Shown here in pieces: positions 23,698 through 30,372 of a stretch of 35,705 bases of DNA (position 1 is the stretch's first letter; the number at the start of each line of letters is the position of its first letter). Under the pieces are notes generated by a model. It had not been told where the DNA came from. It saw only the letters and a program-made list of their open reading frames with translations, and ran no database searches. Position numbers and translations under genes: made by a program. Source of the DNA: Elusimicrobiota bacterium (GTDB taxonomy: Bacteria; Elusimicrobiota; Elusimicrobia; UBA1565); the NCBI GenBank assembly GCA_016218495.1, contig JACRDU010000081.1, positions 1 to 35,705 on the forward strand, written 5' to 3'.

Positions 23698-25215
23698 CTA
23701 CGCGCGGCCAAGGTCTTTCAGCGCCTCTCTCGCCACCACCCGGTCGTCGAAGGGGACGACGCGGTCCTTCAGGACCTGGGTCGTCTCGTGCCCCTTCCCC
23801 GCTATCAGGACCACGTCGCCGGCCTGGGCCGCCGCCAGGGCCTCGCGGACGGCCTCCCGCCGGTCGGGGACGATTCTATAATTTTCCTTCCCGGCGGAGC
23901 GGAGCCCGCCCTCCACCTCGCGCAGGATTGAGACCGGGTCCTCGCCGCGCGGGTTGTCCGAGGTGGCGATGACGAGGTCCGAGGCCCCGGCCGCCGCCGC
24001 GCCCATCGGCGCGCGCTTGGTCCGGTCGCGGTCCCCCCCGCAGCCGAAGACGGTGATGAGGCGGCGGTGGGGAAGGCGCGAGAGGGCCCCCAGGACCGAG
24101 GCCAGCGCCCGGCCCGTATGGGCGAAGTCCACGAAGACCGAGAACGGCTGTCCGGCCTCCACCGGCTCGAGGCGGCCCGGGACGCTGGCCAACGCCTCGA
24201 GCCCCGCGACGACGGCGTGTCCGTCGAAGCCGAGTTCGAGCGCGGTGGACGCCGCGGCGAGGCCGTTGTAGGCGTTGTGCTCTCCGACCAGGCGGAGGCG
24301 GACGGCGAGGGCGCCCGACCTGGTCTTGAGGTTGAACAGGGTGCCGGTCTGGGACAGCACCAGGTCTTCGGCGCGGTAGTCGGATTCGGATGCGAAGCCG
24401 AACGAGGCGCAGGGGACGGCCGAGATGCGGTGACGGAAGAGCGGGTAGGAGGCGTCGTCGCGGTTGAGCAGGGCGGCCCGGCGCGGCTTGCCCGCCTCGG
24501 GCCTCTCGAGGAGGCCGAACAGGCGGGCCTTGGACTCCATGTAGGCTTCCTGCGTGCCGTGGAAATCGAGGTGGTCTGAGTGGAGGTTGGTGAGGACCGC
24601 CGCGTCGAAGCGCACCCCGTCTGCGCGTTTCAGGGCCAGGGCGTGGGAGGAGACCTCCATCGCCACGAAGTCCCCCCCGCCGTCGCGCATCCGGGCCATC
24701 AGGCGCATCAGGTCGGCGGAGAGCGGCGTGGTGTTGGCGGCCTCCTCTATGGTGCGGCCGCGCAGGCGGTGTCCCGTCGTGCCGATGACTCCGGGGACCC
24801 GGCCGGCGCGTGACGCGATGGATTCTAGGAGCCAGGTCGTGGTGGTCTTGCCGTTCGTCCCGGTGACGCCCACCACCGTCATCGCCGCGCTGGGGTCGCC
24901 GTAGAAGGCCGACGCGGCCTCGGACATCGCGGCGAGGGCGTCGGGGACCCGGACCCAGGCGACGGCGCCGCGCGGGCCGGACAGCCCCATCGGGGCCGGG
25001 GGCGCGGCCAGCTCGCTGAAGACCGCCACCGCCCCGGCTTGCGCGGCCTGGCGGACGAAGCGGTTCCCGTCGGTCTTCGTCACCGGCAGGGCGAAATAGG
25101 CGCAGCCGTGGGCGACCTTGCGCGAGTCGAACTCCAGCCCGGTCACCTCCAGCGCCGCGGAGCCGCGCAGCTCGGCGCCCGTCACGGCCTGCGCCAGCTC
25201 GCCGAGCGTCCTCAC
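23698..25215 (-). CDS. murE: UDP-MurNAc-L-alanyl-D-glutamate--meso-diaminopimelate ligase MurE
   Basis: 505 residues from GTG 25215, overlapping the ftsI stop (GTGA). Domain 1 contains LEFDSRKVAHGCAYFALP. The P-loop is VTGTNGKTTTT (about 118-127). NTTPLSADLM, EVSSHALALKR and the carbamylated-Lys motif YMESKARLF (Lys229) are present. Domain 3 has VDFAHTGRAL and the ATSDNPRGEDP stretch. Asp-Asn-Pro-Arg (420-423) is the family signature for meso-diaminopimelate rather than lysine, so the peptidoglycan is predicted to be of the mDAP type. The usual DYAHTPD is DFAHTGR here, a small deviation next to the active site. The stop is TAG. Confidence 0.97.
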   Translation of the reverse strand: MRTLGELAQAVTGAELRGSAALEVTGLEFDSRKVAHGCAYFALPVTKTDGNRFVRQAAQAGAVAVFSELAAPPAPMGLSGPRGAVAWVRVPDALAAMSEAASAFYGDPSAAMTVVGVTGTNGKTTTTWLLESIASRAGRVPGVIGTTGHRLRGRTIEEAANTTPLSADLMRLMARMRDGGGDFVAMEVSSHALALKRADGVRFDAAVLTNLHSDHLDFHGTQEAYMESKARLFGLLERPEAGKPRRAALLNRDDASYPLFRHRISAVPCASFGFASESDYRAEDLVLSQTGTLFNLKTRSGALAVRLRLVGEHNAYNGLAAASTALELGFDGHAVVAGLEALASVPGRLEPVEAGQPFSVFVDFAHTGRALASVLGALSRLPHRRLITVFGCGGDRDRTKRAPMGAAAAGASDLVIATSDNPRGEDPVSILREVEGGLRSAGKENYRIVPDRREAVREALAAAQAGDVVLIAGKGHETTQVLKDRVVPFDDRVVAREALKDLGRA

Positions 25216-27008
25216 AGCAGGGCGCTCCGGGCGGGCTTCGGGGCGCCGGTCTGCTCGGCGCGGGGGCCCTGGCGCATGAAGGTGGGGCGCGGGAGCGGGG
25301 GCACGCGCGGGACGCTCGGGCGCGCCGCCGGCGCGGGCGCGGCCGGCTTGGCCGGGTCGCGCGCCTTGACCTGCAGCGGCAGCTCCGGAGGGACGCCCTT
25401 GAGCGCCAGGAGCTGGCGCGCGATGCGCGAGAAGACCGGCGCCGCCACCTCGGCGGCGTAATAGCCGACGCGCGGCGTGTCGACGACCACCAGGATGGAC
25501 CAGCGGGGCCGCTGGGCCGGGACCCAGCCCGCGAAGGAGGCCACGTAGTCGGTCGGCGAGTACTTGCGCGTGGCCGGGTCGATCTTCTGCGCGGTGCCGG
25601 TCTTCCCGGCGGCGGAGTAGCCGGGGACCCGGGCGCTGACGCCGGTCCCGCCTTCCACGACGGAGACCAGCATCTTCTGGAGGGCGGCGACGGTCTCAGG
25701 GGAGGCGACGCGGCGCACGACCACGGGCTCCCGCGCGGGGGCGCCGCCCACGGAGAGCACCAGGCGCGGCTCGTAGAGGGTCCCGCCGTTGGCGACGGCG
25801 GCGTAGGCCGCGGAGAGCTGCAGCGCCGTCACGGCCACGCCCTGGCCGAACGCGGCGTTGGCCAGGCTGACGTCGGGGACGGATTCGGACGGGATCAGAC
25901 CCGGGCTCTCGCCGGGCAGGGGCACCCCGGTCCGGTATCCGAAGCCGAAGAGGCGCGCGAAGCGGAAGAACTCCTTGTCGCCCAGGCGCAGGCCGATCTT
26001 CCCGGTCCCGATGTTGGAGGAGTGCTTGATGATGTCGGCCAGCCCGAGCCGCCCCTGCTTGTCATGGTCCTTGATCGCCACCGAGGGGGCGACCTGCCAG
26101 CGCCCATTCTCGCAGTCCACCGTCTCACCGTCCTTGAGCACCTTGTTCTCGAGCGCCGCGGCGGCCGTGACCAGCTTGAAGGTCGAGCCGGGCTCGTAGA
26201 CGTCCTGCACGGCATGGTTGCGCCGGGAGTCGGACGGACGCACCGCCATGGCGAGGATTTCGCCGTTGGAGGGGTCCTGCACGATGACGGTCCCGCCGGA
26301 GGCCTTGCGGCTGGTGATGGCCTCGTCGAGGGCCGTCTCGGCGAAGAACTGGACGGCGCGGTCGATGGTCAGGGTGAGCTCGGGGGGCGGGGGCGCCGCT
26401 TCGGACTCCTGGCGGATGGAGCGGCCCGCGCCGTCTCGGCGCAAGTGGACCGGGACGGCCCGTCCCGAGATGTCGGAGTCGAACGCCAGCTCCAGCCCCG
26501 CCGCCCCGCGCCCGTCGAGGTTGACCTCGCCGAGGACCGGGCGGGCCAGCGCGTCGTTGGGATAGCTGCGCGCCTCGTCCGCCTCGATGCCCACGCAGGC
26601 CAGGCCCAGGCCGCGCAGGCGCTGCGCCTCGTCGAAGGACATCTTGCGCTTTATCCACACCGTGCGGCGCTTGGAGGCGGCGGTCTTGCGCAGGTCGGAC
26701 CGGTCGAGGGCGAGGGCTTCGGCGATCCGACCCAGGACCTTCTCCTTGGGGGCGTCGGATTCCCCGAGCACCTTGAGGTCCAGGAAGGCCGACCAGGCCG
26801 GCAAGGATTGGGCCAGCGGGCGGCCGTTGCGGTCCAGGATGCGGCCGCGGGGGACGATTTCGAGGTCCTGACGCTCGACGGAGCGGTCGACCCGGGCCTC
26901 GAAGGCGTGGTGGCGCACGATGTGCAGCCAGGCCAGGCGGGTCGCCAGGGGAGCGACGGGGAGGAGGCACAGCCACCCGCACAGGCGCAGGCGCTCGAGC
27001 GCGCTCAT
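25212..27008 (-). CDS. ftsI: Division-specific penicillin-binding protein (class B, FtsI/PBP3-like)
   Basis: 598 residues from ATG 27008. A single N-terminal TM segment (about 11-30) is followed by a dimerisation/pedestal domain (PRGRILDRNGRPLAQSLPAW, YPNDALARPVLGEVNLDGRGAAGLE) and a transpeptidase domain with all three active-site motifs: S275-T-F-K278, S330-S-N332 and K469-T-G471. The C-terminal tail (about 555-598) is rich in Pro, Ala and Arg and low in complexity. No PASTA domains are present. It cross-links septal peptidoglycan with FtsW. The order ftsL-ftsI-murE in the dcw cluster supports FtsI rather than PBP2. Confidence 0.96.
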   Translation of the reverse strand: MSALERLRLCGWLCLLPVAPLATRLAWLHIVRHHAFEARVDRSVERQDLEIVPRGRILDRNGRPLAQSLPAWSAFLDLKVLGESDAPKEKVLGRIAEALALDRSDLRKTAASKRRTVWIKRKMSFDEAQRLRGLGLACVGIEADEARSYPNDALARPVLGEVNLDGRGAAGLELAFDSDISGRAVPVHLRRDGAGRSIRQESEAAPPPPELTLTIDRAVQFFAETALDEAITSRKASGGTVIVQDPSNGEILAMAVRPSDSRRNHAVQDVYEPGSTFKLVTAAAALENKVLKDGETVDCENGRWQVAPSVAIKDHDKQGRLGLADIIKHSSNIGTGKIGLRLGDKEFFRFARLFGFGYRTGVPLPGESPGLIPSESVPDVSLANAAFGQGVAVTALQLSAAYAAVANGGTLYEPRLVLSVGGAPAREPVVVRRVASPETVAALQKMLVSVVEGGTGVSARVPGYSAAGKTGTAQKIDPATRKYSPTDYVASFAGWVPAQRPRWSILVVVDTPRVGYYAAEVAAPVFSRIARQLLALKGVPPELPLQVKARDPAKPAAPAPAARPSVPRVPPLPRPTFMRQGPRAEQTGAPKPARSALL

Positions 27009-27012
27009 CGTC

Positions 27013-27366
27013 CTAACGCCGGAGGGCCGAAGCGAGCAGGGGCCGGGGCTCTTCCTTGACGGGCGTCGGAGCCTTGGCCAGGACCGGAGGCGGGGACATG
27101 CGGGGGGCGCCGAGGACGACCACGCTCTCCGGCAGCGGCGCCGCCATCCCGAGCCGCCGCGCCGCCGCCTCGGCGACGCTCTCGGGCGCGCTCAAGGCCT
27201 CGAACTCGGAGCGCAGGTAGGCTATGCGGTCGCGCGTGCGGTGGAGCTCCGCACGGGCCCCGCTGACCTGGTAGCCGAGCCGGGTCGCCTGCACCTGTTC
27301 CCAAAGGAACATGAGCGACAGGCCCGCGGCCCCGACCACCAGCGTGATGTTGCTCCTCGTTATCAT
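27013..27366 (-). CDS. ftsL: FtsL-like cell-division protein
   Basis: 117 residues from ATG 27366, with AAGGA two bases upstream (short spacing). A short cytoplasmic N-terminus is followed by one TM helix (about 8-23) and a heptad-like, charged coiled-coil region (about 25-62, including ARAELHRTRDRIAYLRSEFEAL). Then comes a septum-formation-initiator-like ESVAEAAARRLGM segment and a Pro-rich tail. The sequence alone is weakly conserved, as for all FtsL proteins. The call rests on topology and position between rsmH and ftsI. FtsL would bridge the FtsQB proteins to FtsWI. The stop is TAG and ftsI begins 4 nt later. Confidence 0.85.
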   Translation of the reverse strand: MITRSNITLVVGAAGLSLMFLWEQVQATRLGYQVSGARAELHRTRDRIAYLRSEFEALSAPESVAEAAARRLGMAAPLPESVVVLGAPRMSPPPVLAKAPTPVKEEPRPLLASALRR

Positions 27367-27373
27367 CGTCCTT

Positions 27374-27543
27374 AAATTCGGCCGGCACCCCGCCGAGTAG
27401 GTGCCAGCCAGATCGTTTCTCCGTGCGTCCTTGCGTCCTCAAATCGGGGGCACCCCGCCGAGTAGGTGCCCGCCAGAACGGTGCTGCGGGTGCGTCTCAA
27501 ATCGGGGGCACCCCGCCGAGTAGGTGCCCGCCAGAACGGTGCT
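27374..27543. repeat. Three copies of a hairpin-forming 45-50 bp repeat between the small ORF and ftsL
   Basis: The core GCACCCCGCCGAGTAGGTGCC occurs at about 27385, 27450 and 27508 (+ strand coordinates). Copies 2 (27439-27485) and 3 (27497-27543) are identical over 47 bp with a 58-bp period. Copy 1 (27374-27415) is more diverged and offset by 65 bp. Each copy contains an inverted repeat, GGCACC/GGTGCC (GGGCACC/GGTGCCC in copies 2 and 3), around a 10-nt loop CCGCCGAGTA, so the transcript could form three successive stem-loops. It is non-coding. The last copy ends on the stop codon of the small ORF. Confidence 0.85.
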
Positions 27544-27698
27544 TATCTCTCGCGGCCCTTCACGGCCTTCAGGAACACCCTGCGCCAAATGTAGGCCGCC
27601 CCCGGGACCAGACCCGTGGGCTTGAGCAGGATTCCCTGCAACCTCGCGCTGGGCATCGACATCACAGCCGTGTTGAGCGTCATGCTCTTCACTGTCAT
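27543..27698 (-). CDS. 51-residue small protein coupled to rsmH, unknown function
   Basis: ATG 27698 overlaps the rsmH stop as ATGA, and GAGAGG lies 5-6 nt upstream of the ATG, so initiation is well supported. The product begins MTVKSMTLNTAVMSMPSAR and ends with a basic RRVFLKAVKGRER; a moderately hydrophobic middle (LVPGAAYIW) is too short for a clear TM helix. I recognise no family. The stop is TAA, directly followed by three hairpin repeats and then ftsL. Translation in this position would be coupled to rsmH. It could be a real micro-protein of the division cluster, a leader peptide for the repeats, or a chance ORF. Confidence 0.55.
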   Translation of the reverse strand: MTVKSMTLNTAVMSMPSARLQGILLKPTGLVPGAAYIWRRVFLKAVKGRER

Positions 27699-28600
27699 GG
27701 TCGCCTCTCTATCACGCGGAGTTTCGCGCTGCGGGACCGGGGGTTCATGGCCACCTCGGCCGGCGCGGCGCAGACGGGCGAATCGGTGACGTTGGCGCAG
27801 GTCCCGTTCTCCACGAGGGACTTGAAGAGGTTCTTGACGATGCGGTCCTCGAGGGAGTGGAAGGAGATGACGGCCAGCCGCCCCCCCGCCTTCAGGTAGG
27901 GGAGGATGCTCTCGAGCCCGCGGGTCAGGGCCTCGAGCTCCTGGTTGACCGCGATGCGCAGCGCCATGAAGGTCTTCGTCGCCGGGTGGATGCGGCCGGC
28001 GCGCGGCAGGCGCTCCTCGATGAGGCGCTTGAGCTGGGTCGTGGTCTCGAAGGCCTCGTGGGCCCGGGCGTCGACTATCCAGCGCGCGATGCGCCGGGCG
28101 TCGCGCTCCTCGCCGTACTCGCGCAGCAGGAGCTCGAGCTGCTCGGCGGGCCATTCGTTGACTATCCGGGCCGCCGTCAGCGGGCTGGCGGGGTCCAGGC
28201 GCATGTCCAAGGGGCCCTCGTGGCGGAAGGCGAAGCCGCGGGAGGGCTTGTCCATCTGCAGAGAGGAGACTCCCAGGTCGAAGAGGGCTCCGGAGAAGGA
28301 GGCCTTGGCCTCGCCCTCGAGGACCTTGGAGAGGTTGCGGAAGTTGGCCCGGACCGCGCGCAGGCGGCCGCCGTGCGGCGCGAGGCGGCGCGAGGCGTGG
28401 GCCAGCGCCTCGGGGTCGGTGTCGACCGCGAGCAGGCGCCCCTGGGGCGAGAGGCGCTCGAGGACGGCCTCGGCGTGCCCGCCCAGCCCCAGAGTGGCGT
28501 CGAGGTAGGTCCCCCCTTCGTCGGTGACGAGCAGGTCCAGGACCTCCGCGAGGAGGACCGGTTCGTGGGTGTATTCTTCTTCCATGGTCAGGACGGGCAT
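27695..28600 (-). CDS. rsmH: 16S rRNA (cytosine(1402)-N4)-methyltransferase RsmH (MraW)
   Basis: 301 residues from ATG 28600, sharing one base with the mraZ stop; GGGGAT lies just upstream. RsmH signatures are clear: EYTHEPVLLAEVLDLL, GTYLDATLGLGGHAEAVLERL for SAM binding, FDLGVSSLQMDKPSRGFAFRHEGPLDMRLD, TFMALRIAVNQELEAL and LAVISFHSLEDRIVKNLF. It methylates N4 of C1402 in 16S rRNA and is the usual second gene of dcw clusters. The next internal ATG (codon 6) would also leave the protein functional but has no Shine-Dalgarno. Confidence 0.97.
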   Translation of the reverse strand: MPVLTMEEEYTHEPVLLAEVLDLLVTDEGGTYLDATLGLGGHAEAVLERLSPQGRLLAVDTDPEALAHASRRLAPHGGRLRAVRANFRNLSKVLEGEAKASFSGALFDLGVSSLQMDKPSRGFAFRHEGPLDMRLDPASPLTAARIVNEWPAEQLELLLREYGEERDARRIARWIVDARAHEAFETTTQLKRLIEERLPRAGRIHPATKTFMALRIAVNQELEALTRGLESILPYLKAGGRLAVISFHSLEDRIVKNLFKSLVENGTCANVTDSPVCAAPAEVAMNPRSRSAKLRVIERRP

Positions 28601-29058
28601 CAGATCCCCATCTCCTGGGCGATCTTCTCGAAGGCGGGCTTGGCCTTCTTAGCCGCATACTGCTGGTAGCGCGCCGCGTCCCAGACCTCGGCGCGCGCGC
28701 CGGCGCCGATGATGACCACGTCCTTGCGCAGGCCGGCGTGGGACTTGAACTTCTCGGAGACGAGCACGCGGCCCTGCTCGTCGAGCTCGACCTCTTCGGC
28801 GTTGGCGAAGAGCTCGCGGCGCGCGTCGGGCACGCCGGTCTTGTCCTTGAGGGCGCGGGCCTGCTCCTCGAAGAGGTTCATGAAATTTTCCCACTGCGAC
28901 GGCAGGAAGAGCATCACGCAGTCGCCGCGGCCCTTGGCGAGCACGAAGTGGGAGGCCTTCTCCTGGGTGAGGAGCTCCCGGAAACGCGACGGCACGACGA
29001 GCCTGTTCTTGGCGTCGAGCGTGTAGTCGTAGTGTCCGATCAGTACAGGGTTTCCCAC
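28600..29058 (-). CDS. mraZ: Transcriptional regulator MraZ
   Basis: 152 residues from GTG 29058. Two AbrB-like SpoVT/MraZ half-domains are visible: YDYTLDAKNRLVVPSRFRE (about 10-28) and VELDEQGRVLVSEKFKSHAGL (about 90-110), each with the D-x-x-x-R core of the family. MraZ forms a ring that binds TGGGN direct repeats spaced by 5 nt and represses the dcw operon. Exactly such repeats lie upstream and run into this start codon, so autoregulation is strongly suggested. The start adds about six residues before the usual MraZ N-terminus (IGHYDYTLD); no better codon was found. Confidence 0.96.
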   Translation of the reverse strand: MGNPVLIGHYDYTLDAKNRLVVPSRFRELLTQEKASHFVLAKGRGDCVMLFLPSQWENFMNLFEEQARALKDKTGVPDARRELFANAEEVELDEQGRVLVSEKFKSHAGLRKDVVIIGAGARAEVWDAARYQQYAAKKAKPAFEKIAQEMGI

Positions 29059-29087
29059 TTGTCTCTACTCTCTCCCACTTTCTCCCA
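29053..29087 (-). promoter_or_regulatory. MraZ operator: four TGGGA-type boxes with 10-bp period
   Basis: On the - strand, boxes TGGGA at 29087-29083, TGGGA at 29077-29073, TAGAG (degenerate) at 29067-29063 and TGGGA at 29057-29053 are separated by exactly 5 nt each. This is the published MraZ-binding pattern (TGGGN-N5 repeats). The fourth box overlaps the mraZ GTG start codon (29058-29056), so bound MraZ would cover both the initial transcribed region and the translation start. The operator begins about 4 nt downstream of the predicted transcript start. Confidence 0.88.
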
Positions 29088-29097
29088 CCGCTGGACA

Positions 29098-29126
29098 ATA
29101 CTAACGGAAGAGCGGGAATCTGTCAA
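29098..29126 (-). promoter_or_regulatory. Sigma-70-type promoter of the dcw cluster
   Basis: TTGACA (-35, 29126-29121) and TAGTAT (-10, 29103-29098) are separated by 17 bp. The start of transcription is predicted near 29091, giving a leader of about 33 nt before mraZ. The region is visibly more AT-rich than the surrounding genes. It lies in the 123-bp gap between the HExxH-peptidase gene and mraZ and is the best promoter match in the window. Confidence 0.85.
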
Positions 29127-29181
29127 GGCCTATTTCTGTGACATTACCGCTTATGAGGAGCGGCGCCCGGAGGAGGGACGG

Positions 29182-30372
29182 CTATTGGGCGCGGCGCGGG
29201 CCGGACTGCGCGTCGTAGCGCCAGGCGTACTCGAGCGCTTTGACGGAGTTGAACGGCATCCCGTAGGCGCGATAGAGGGACTCCTTGACCGGGGTCCCGT
29301 CGCGCAGGAACTTGCAGAATTTATAGAACGACGAGCGGTACTGCGAGCGGATGAGGAAGCGCACGACGCTGTAGGACTGCGTGTACCACAGGCGGATCTC
29401 GTCGTCCTTCGCTCCCGTGGTGTTGTCGACGCGCGTCAGCTCGTCGAGGCCGTAGCCGCCGCCGCGCTTGATGATCTCTAGGTTGTGCCGCAGCCAGTTC
29501 GGCGCGGCCAGGCCGCGCTCGGTCTGGACCAGGGTGGCCATCCCTTCCGAGAGCCACAGCGGGTCGGTGAGCCCGCCGATGAAGAAGCTGTCGAAGTAGA
29601 TGTGCGTGAGCTCGTGGGCCAGGATGCCGACGAGCTCCTCCGACTCGTAGAGATAGACCTTGCGCCGCTTGACCGAGGAGGCGCCGCCGGACCAGGCGGG
29701 GCGCCCCGTCACGCGGCGATAGCTCTCCTGGTCGCGGAACAGGAAGATCGACACGCGCTCCTCGCGCGCCCACGGCGAGAAGGCGGCGAGGTCGAGCATC
29801 AGGTTCGCATGGATGCTCTCCAGCGTCTCGCGGAACTCGAGCGACGGGGCTTTGCCCTCGGCGTAGATGTTGAAGTGGTTGGTCTGGGTGCGCGTGAAGC
29901 CCTTGGGGGTCGGAGCCTCCTCCTCCGGAGGACGCGCGAGGCGCTCCGGGGCGGGCCGCGCTTCAGGCTCCGTCCGCTCGGTCTTGGGAATCCGTTCGGG
30001 GGCCTTCCCGACGAAGCCGGGCGTCGGCTGGATGGAGGGCATCGTGCCGCTGACCGAGGACGGTATCCTCGCCAGCTTGGCCCCGGTGTTGGCCCCCCGG
30101 ACCGTGGCTTCAGGCTGGGTCGTCAGGTCCTCCGGCGGCTTCTGCGCGAAGAGCTTCTCCGGCGGGATGGTGCCGTCCGCCTCGATGTCGGGCAGGTCGT
30201 CGTCGAACTCGATGTCGCGCCGGTGCACCGTCTCCATGCTGCGGCTGACCCACTTCATCTGGGCCTGGTCGCCGCCGGTCTCCTCTTCCCCGAGGAACTG
30301 CCAGACCATGAGCCCCCACAACGAGAGGACCATGACCCAAAGCAATACCCTGAGGCGTATGAGTATGTCCAC
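29182..30372 (-). CDS. Membrane-anchored zinc metallopeptidase-like protein (peptidase MA-like, HExxH)
   Basis: 396 residues from GTG 30372, with AAGGGAT a few bases upstream. One N-terminal TM helix (about 9-27) is followed by a long Pro/Glu/Arg-rich linker (about 30-160), which is probably disordered. The catalytic domain (about 163-390) contains LVGILAHELTHIYFD, with His253, Glu254 and His257, and a glutamate in PLWLSEGMATLVQ (Glu276) as the likely third zinc ligand. This is the gluzincin arrangement of peptidase MA-like domains (PF13485). The domain would face the periplasm. The substrate is unknown; proximity to division genes hints at the envelope only. The TAG stop lies 123 nt before mraZ, with the dcw promoter between. 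Confidence 0.85.
   Translation of the reverse strand: MDILIRLRVLLWVMVLSLWGLMVWQFLGEEETGGDQAQMKWVSRSMETVHRRDIEFDDDLPDIEADGTIPPEKLFAQKPPEDLTTQPEATVRGANTGAKLARIPSSVSGTMPSIQPTPGFVGKAPERIPKTERTEPEARPAPERLARPPEEEAPTPKGFTRTQTNHFNIYAEGKAPSLEFRETLESIHANLMLDLAAFSPWAREERVSIFLFRDQESYRRVTGRPAWSGGASSVKRRKVYLYESEELVGILAHELTHIYFDSFFIGGLTDPLWLSEGMATLVQTERGLAAPNWLRHNLEIIKRGGGYGLDELTRVDNTTGAKDDEIRLWYTQSYSVVRFLIRSQYRSSFYKFCKFLRDGTPVKESLYRAYGMPFNSVKALEYAWRYDAQSGPRRAQ

Follow-up and report, generated by a model that had tools for sequence, protein, structure and literature searches.

A conserved array of covarying hairpins confined to one site of the division operon in Elusimicrobiota

The locus studied here raises the question of what a series of tandem hairpins does between two genes of an essential operon. 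The window, by which we mean the whole stretch of 35,705 nt that was analysed (contig JACRDU010000081.1 of an Elusimicrobiota bacterium), carries on its minus strand a division (dcw) operon composed of mraZ, rsmH, a 51-aa ORF, three hairpins, ftsL, a penicillin-binding protein (PBP) gene, and Mur ligase genes (Table 1). A first-pass annotation made from the sequence alone had described the hairpins as direct repeats that might modulate ftsL expression, protect the upstream mRNA, or represent a dispersed REP- or MITE-like element expanded at this site.

Table 1. Features of the division operon and its hairpin array in the window (CM, covariance model)
Feature	Position	Strand	Details
Promoter-like site	29098..29126	-	TTGACA-17-TAGTAT, ahead of mraZ; only one in 26800-29600
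mraZ	28600..29058	-	PF02381
rsmH/mraW	27695..28600	-	PF01795, E 9.3e-99
Small ORF, 51 aa, basic	27543..27698	-	translation and tblastn; directly upstream of array
Hairpin repeat 1 (operon order)	27496..27543	-	22-nt core 27507-27528, loop 27513-27522, RNA loop UACUCGGCGG; CM match G000:C48:27498-27537
Hairpin repeat 2	27438..27485	-	core 27449-27470, loop 27455-27464; CM match 27440-27479
Hairpin repeat 3	27373..27420	-	core 27384-27405, loop 27390-27399; CM match 27375-27414, best in own genome, E 7.2e-9
ftsL, 117 aa	27013..27366	-	name based on position and on tblastn matches in relatives
PBP, ftsI-type transpeptidase	25212..27008	-	PF00905, PF03717

The three repeats are real, with three matches to their core in the window (at most 3 mismatches) compared to 0.02 expected from shuffled versions of it. 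Their 22-nt core GGCACC-CCGCCGAGTA-GGTGCC is the same in all three copies, which bears out the described GGCACC/GGTGCC stem and 10-nt loop. The previously reported sequence was that of the plus strand; on the operon strand, which is most likely that of the functional RNA (see below), each repeat reads stem-UACUCGGCGG-stem. Repeats 1 and 2 are indeed identical, though over 48 rather than 47 nt, and the third copy is diverged as claimed (73% identical), all three being in register at spacings of 65 and 58. The outer stem of this third repeat has changed yet remains fully paired with one U.G, and the repeat stops around 10 nt short of the ftsL start. Pfam confirms MraZ, RsmH, the PBP, and the Mur ligases as neighbors, so that the proposed place in the division operon right before ftsL holds with ftsL named by position and homology: Its product has no Pfam match, which leaves the FtsL identity unconfirmed by Pfam, and relatives keep a protein of this kind at the same place (tblastn). 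The 51-aa small ORF has no Pfam match either. Directly after the mraZ promoter, GTGGGA/GTGGGAG boxes are repeated at 29090-29051 (minus strand), a third box of this type overlapping the GTG start listed for mraZ. They resemble MraZ operator boxes, and on sequence grounds a function of the array as MraZ boxes was rejected: These repeats sit at the mraZ promoter, and none is found in the array.

A covariance model built from relatives was used to search 340 Elusimicrobiota genomes and produced 113 matches in 42 of them, in each genome on a single contig. All 113 fall between rsmH and ftsL in the dcw operon, and in all 42 genomes, where the surroundings were read or aligned, the orientation relative to the operon is fixed. 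Of these genomes, 40 belong to the same order as the window, and the other two (G056 and G230) represent one further family of the class each. Among 57 genomes of relatives, which include Elusimicrobia MAGs such as GWA2_69_24 and count in the window's own genome, 18 have close matches to the repeat, and their dcw loci place it between rsmH and ftsL in a single orientation. The whole-genome search for the core that the first-pass annotation had suggested found it unique to one locus of its own genome, besides one near match with 3 mismatches in the leader of an unrelated context. A core both unique and absent from relatives, together with unchanged transcript levels across it, had been named as making a regulatory or mobile role unlikely; the core is unique, but it is conserved at the same site in relatives. 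Copy number differs between genomes, with 1 to 8 hairpins per locus among the 37 loci with strong hairpins. Related hairpins below the threshold of the model occur in family f7 (L122), and others with changed loops or extra pairs were found in g11 and G028. In the rsmH-ftsL gap of G028 (L276), a larger GC stem encloses a short TCTA/TAGA stem that bears a TACTCGGCGG loop. The UCGGCGG hairpin is absent from the loci read in genus g5 and in families f5 and f6. As a control, 47 genomes of other phyla gave single weak matches in two genomes, which were dismissed as no dcw proteins are encoded nearby.

The structure of the element was assessed in a gap-free alignment of 72 elements across a 12-bp helix, to which only elements with 8 or more contiguous pairs and with a [CT]TCGGCG loop were admitted. 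In this set, 94.2% of cells are paired, 11 of 12 pairs show two-sided changes (171 two-sided cells versus 41 in shuffles), and the covariation score of 0.655 compares to 0.211 in shuffled alignments and was reached by none of 500 shuffles; it is lost when the pairing partner is slid along the alignment. Because the preselection favors paired cells, the count was repeated without the stem rule on 105 elements chosen by their loop only, of which 100, 103, 101, 96, 96, 90, 90, 87, 84, and 84 are paired at positions 1 to 10, respectively, and 70 and 56 at positions 11 and 12. Each unit is a hairpin of 10 to 13 bp with the nearly fixed loop YUCGGCG. A survey of the rsmH-ftsL gaps of 38 loci that was blind to the loop found 126 strong hairpins, compared to 7.3 expected from mononucleotide shuffles of the gaps, and 101 of these 126 carry UCGGCG in the loop. 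Folding the whole 184-nt array gives no more stability than shuffles do (z -0.70), since GC-rich shuffles fold as well, so that covariation and not energy is the evidence here. Covariation is scarce within the window genome alone because its three hairpins share their inner stems. Taken across genomes, the array is a conserved structured RNA with compensatory stem changes beyond those of the controls. Several genomes of family f1 (L008, L009, L011, and L012) have a second, different GC hairpin, GGCCCCTCCC... or AGGGAGGGG..., between array and ftsL, and in each of the g10 arrays L055, L056, L058, L066, and L067 one hairpin in the middle of the array has a stem of the GGGTGG/CCACCC type and a variable loop without the core.

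The wobble pairs of the 105 loop-only elements, read in operon sense, comprise 87 G.U versus 45 A.C at pairs 2 to 12 and 32 G.U versus 0 A.C at the closing pair. This excess of G.U over A.C suggests that the operon-sense RNA, i.e., the minus strand of the window, is the likely functional strand. In window positions 26800-29600, a scan detected neither a terminator-like site on the array nor a promoter in the stretch from the array to ftsL; with the only promoter-like site lying ahead of mraZ, ftsL is therefore probably transcribed through the array. The terminator scan looked for a stem followed by a U-run and found none at the array of the window; longer T-runs are present in some relatives. 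Several f2 loci have an extended -10-like site between array and ftsL, as read by eye, so that in these genomes the 3′ region of the rsmH transcript may include the array.

Since any stem sequence is tolerated provided that it pairs, the loop would be the recognized part of the element and is probably a docking site for a partner in trans. CGCCGAG is complementary to the loop core, and the base preceding UCGGCG was C in 112 and U in 10 of 122 hairpin loops (A and G in none), so that the G of a partner CGCCGAG could pair with all of them. Family f1 provides a candidate for such a partner in a second class of match, located directly behind a promoter and ahead of a gene for a secreted FlgD_ig protein (PF13860). 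The predicted transcript of this gene starts with GCACCCCGCCGAGTAGG, preceded by one base (G000, G001, G002, G003, G004, and G006). Its predicted mRNA 5′ end is a 17 to 18 nt exact complement of the dcw hairpins in 6 of the 8 f1 genomes, which are all 6 that have the FlgD_ig gene, as G005 and G007 lack it. Duplexes of leader and hairpin are predicted at -53 to -59 kcal/mol, compared to means of -30 to -37 for shuffled sequences. The full complement is kept by all 10 hairpins of the six genomes with the gene; among the three hairpins of the two genomes without it, one keeps the complement and two are changed, of which one is also interrupted by Ns. Common descent could also explain why the inner stem is frozen in f1. 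The 17-nt complement is known from this one family of eight genomes: Leaders of FlgD_ig orthologs in f3 match over 7 to 8 nt only, with CCGCCGAG in G009 and a one-mismatch form in G015, and the f4 and f2 leaders read have no complement at that place.

The short core recurs upstream of a second gene, which encodes a 103-aa protein family (EVGDLFVT...) with no match in Pfam: CGCCGAG stands in the short 5′UTR of 23 of the 30 orthologs read (L310-L339; families f1, f2, and f3), and 11 of these 30 show the full CCGCCGAG. The gene is missing from both g14 genomes, though this lineage has arrays, and in g7, another lineage with arrays, it is found only in G049, a genome without match to the covariance model. 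Across 57 genomes, a promoter pattern combined with CCGCCGAG gave 27 matches, compared to 5 promoter-proximal matches for its reverse complement and 10 for an octamer of the same composition, and the independent part of this excess is small because many of the 27 are orthologs or coding. A general promoter-proximal motif was rejected, as CGCCGAG follows 2 of 58 promoter-like sites in 1.2 Mb of the array-bearing genome G044 with 0.8 expected. So was a partner in cis within the operon: Across the loci read, CCGCCGAG does not keep any position in non-coding sequence, and among the rows listed 7, including two from one genome, have it at rsmH+451, which is coding. Judged from these complementarities, pairing has to be taken seriously at a handful of genes, short of a demonstrated network. 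The promoter-proximal stretches at L159 (G005; upstream of an FtsA-like ORF) and at L169 and L170 (upstream of HEAT-repeat genes) are alike, and these (CCGCCGAGG...ATGCGC..AGCATGGCTC.TCGGCG) could fold on themselves.

With structure, covariation, confinement to the rsmH-ftsL gap, and strand preference established by computation, we infer partner and effect of the array as follows. Our leading reading, which we hold tentatively and with less than even confidence, is that the array acts as a cis-encoded structured RNA in the dcw mRNA whose loop would pair with a partner RNA through CGCCGAG. Tandem copies would offer more docking sites. The candidate partner in f1 would be the 5′ end of the secreted FlgD_ig mRNA, whose first 17 to 18 nt could invade the loop and the inner stem, and partners outside f1 may be 5′UTRs with just the core of 7 to 8 nt. 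Pairing may then alter processing, decay, or read-through between rsmH and the small ORF on one side and ftsL and the PBP gene on the other, or conversely the dcw RNA may control the partner mRNA, either direction of control being possible. A bolder version, which we consider unlikely, is a multivalent antisense hub in the dcw operon of this class, in which the YUCGGCG seeds of the tandem hairpins would pair in trans with CGCCGAG at the 5′ ends of mRNAs for the envelope and other functions, placing division-operon RNA and the expression of surface proteins under mutual control, with f1 having become locked into its 17-nt match.

Several other explanations have to be weighed against pairing with a partner RNA. 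The most serious of them, though still rather unlikely in our view, is that a lineage-specific RNA-binding protein recognizes the YUCGGCG loop, which might be an antiterminator, a processing factor, or the small basic product of the ORF ahead of the array, and that the complementarity of leaders is incidental. Protein-bound hairpins usually show a fixed loop on a variable stem, and a constant loop on a changing stem is what we see; in most loci, moreover, the small ORF immediately precedes the array. However, homologues of the 51-aa ORF, while keeping their position in most relatives, are also present in g5 genomes without hairpins, a different small ORF (..FYLWEKHGIKRIELFSMEE) occupies f6 loci, and the ORF is missing or displaced at the hairpin loci L129 and L130. 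Nor does a protein lead one to expect that 6 of 6 genomes have a 17-nt complement at the 5′ end of a transcript. It is less probable, and on balance doubtful, that the stem-loops are passive mRNA features that stabilize the 3′ end of the rsmH mRNA or partially terminate it, with a separate ftsL promoter in some genomes. Short T-rich stretches following GC-rich stems, such as CCAATTTTT in L275, and the extended -10-like sites of several f2 loci would fit such a role, but passive hairpins have no need for a fixed loop, and the window array lacks terminator-like sites, has no promoter before ftsL, and ends so close to the ftsL start.

Elements working at the level of DNA, i.e., a protein-bound repeat, a cruciform, or a single-stranded hairpin, appear very improbable to us: Tandem inverted repeats and a leader match immediately behind a promoter on the opposite strand would suit them, whereas the wobble bias to one strand and the orientation fixed in all 42 genomes argue against them. 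We give hardly any credence to a mobile or dispersed repeat of the REP/MITE type that expanded at the dcw site. REP/BIME repeats (RAYT) are intergenic hairpins that often come in pairs or arrays, are dispersed, and have conserved stems. The tandem copy number of the array does vary between genomes, but the array is one locus with variable stems, unlike the ends of mobile elements, and a fixed loop; no match lies outside the dcw operon in 340 genomes, and its own genome has one locus and the near match. This part of the first-pass annotation is thus not upheld, while a cis role at the level of ftsL or its mRNA fits the site, the orientation, and the covarying structure in 42 genomes.

Comparison to known RNAs yielded no equivalent. 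Searches with Rfam 15 returned only a tRNA in the window and, with permissive E-values on two sets of 7 loci each, no score near the gathering cutoff, and we found no published report of the hairpin element as judged by titles and abstract openings. The mraW RNA motif (RF01746) is likewise a conserved candidate RNA structure tied to mraW/rsmH, but it belongs to another phylum and is located upstream of mraW, whereas the array lies downstream and has no Rfam match. It is listed as an mraW-associated candidate structure of Actinomycetales in a table of PMC2864571. The pan motif shares tandem simple hairpins with few fixed bases and was suggested to be the site of a dimeric protein, yet it differs in sequence and site, lying upstream of pantothenate genes and having bulged A residues, as far as passages of the same report describe it (PMC2864571). 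Among working systems, UpsM/StsR of Rhodobacter sphaeroides offers the closest analogy: There, according to the reports, a trans sRNA pairs with an RNA from the dcw 5′UTR and affects dcw expression and cell division (PMC5089854, PMC8307010). Both cases would involve an untranslated dcw-operon RNA paired by an RNA in trans. In these reports, UpsM is the mraZ 5′UTR with a Rho-independent terminator in Rhodobacteraceae; here, by contrast, tandem hairpins of constant loop lie between rsmH and ftsL without a terminator-like site, and pairing is predicted only. Long complementarity in trans spans 17 to 18 nt in 6 of 8 f1 genomes and 7 to 8 nt or none elsewhere.

In sum, the hairpins form a real, structured, and conserved element restricted to a single operon, and its free stems and constant loop in this essential operon point to an undescribed RNA control element, one that covaries strongly at a fixed point of a highly conserved division operon. 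Its host phylum has few cultured members, and many of the uncultured ones carry such hairpins. The design of constant loop and variable stem makes the element directly testable by changing loop or leader and then restoring their pairing. If the loop is a pairing seed, the array would be an RNA link from cell division to other transcripts.
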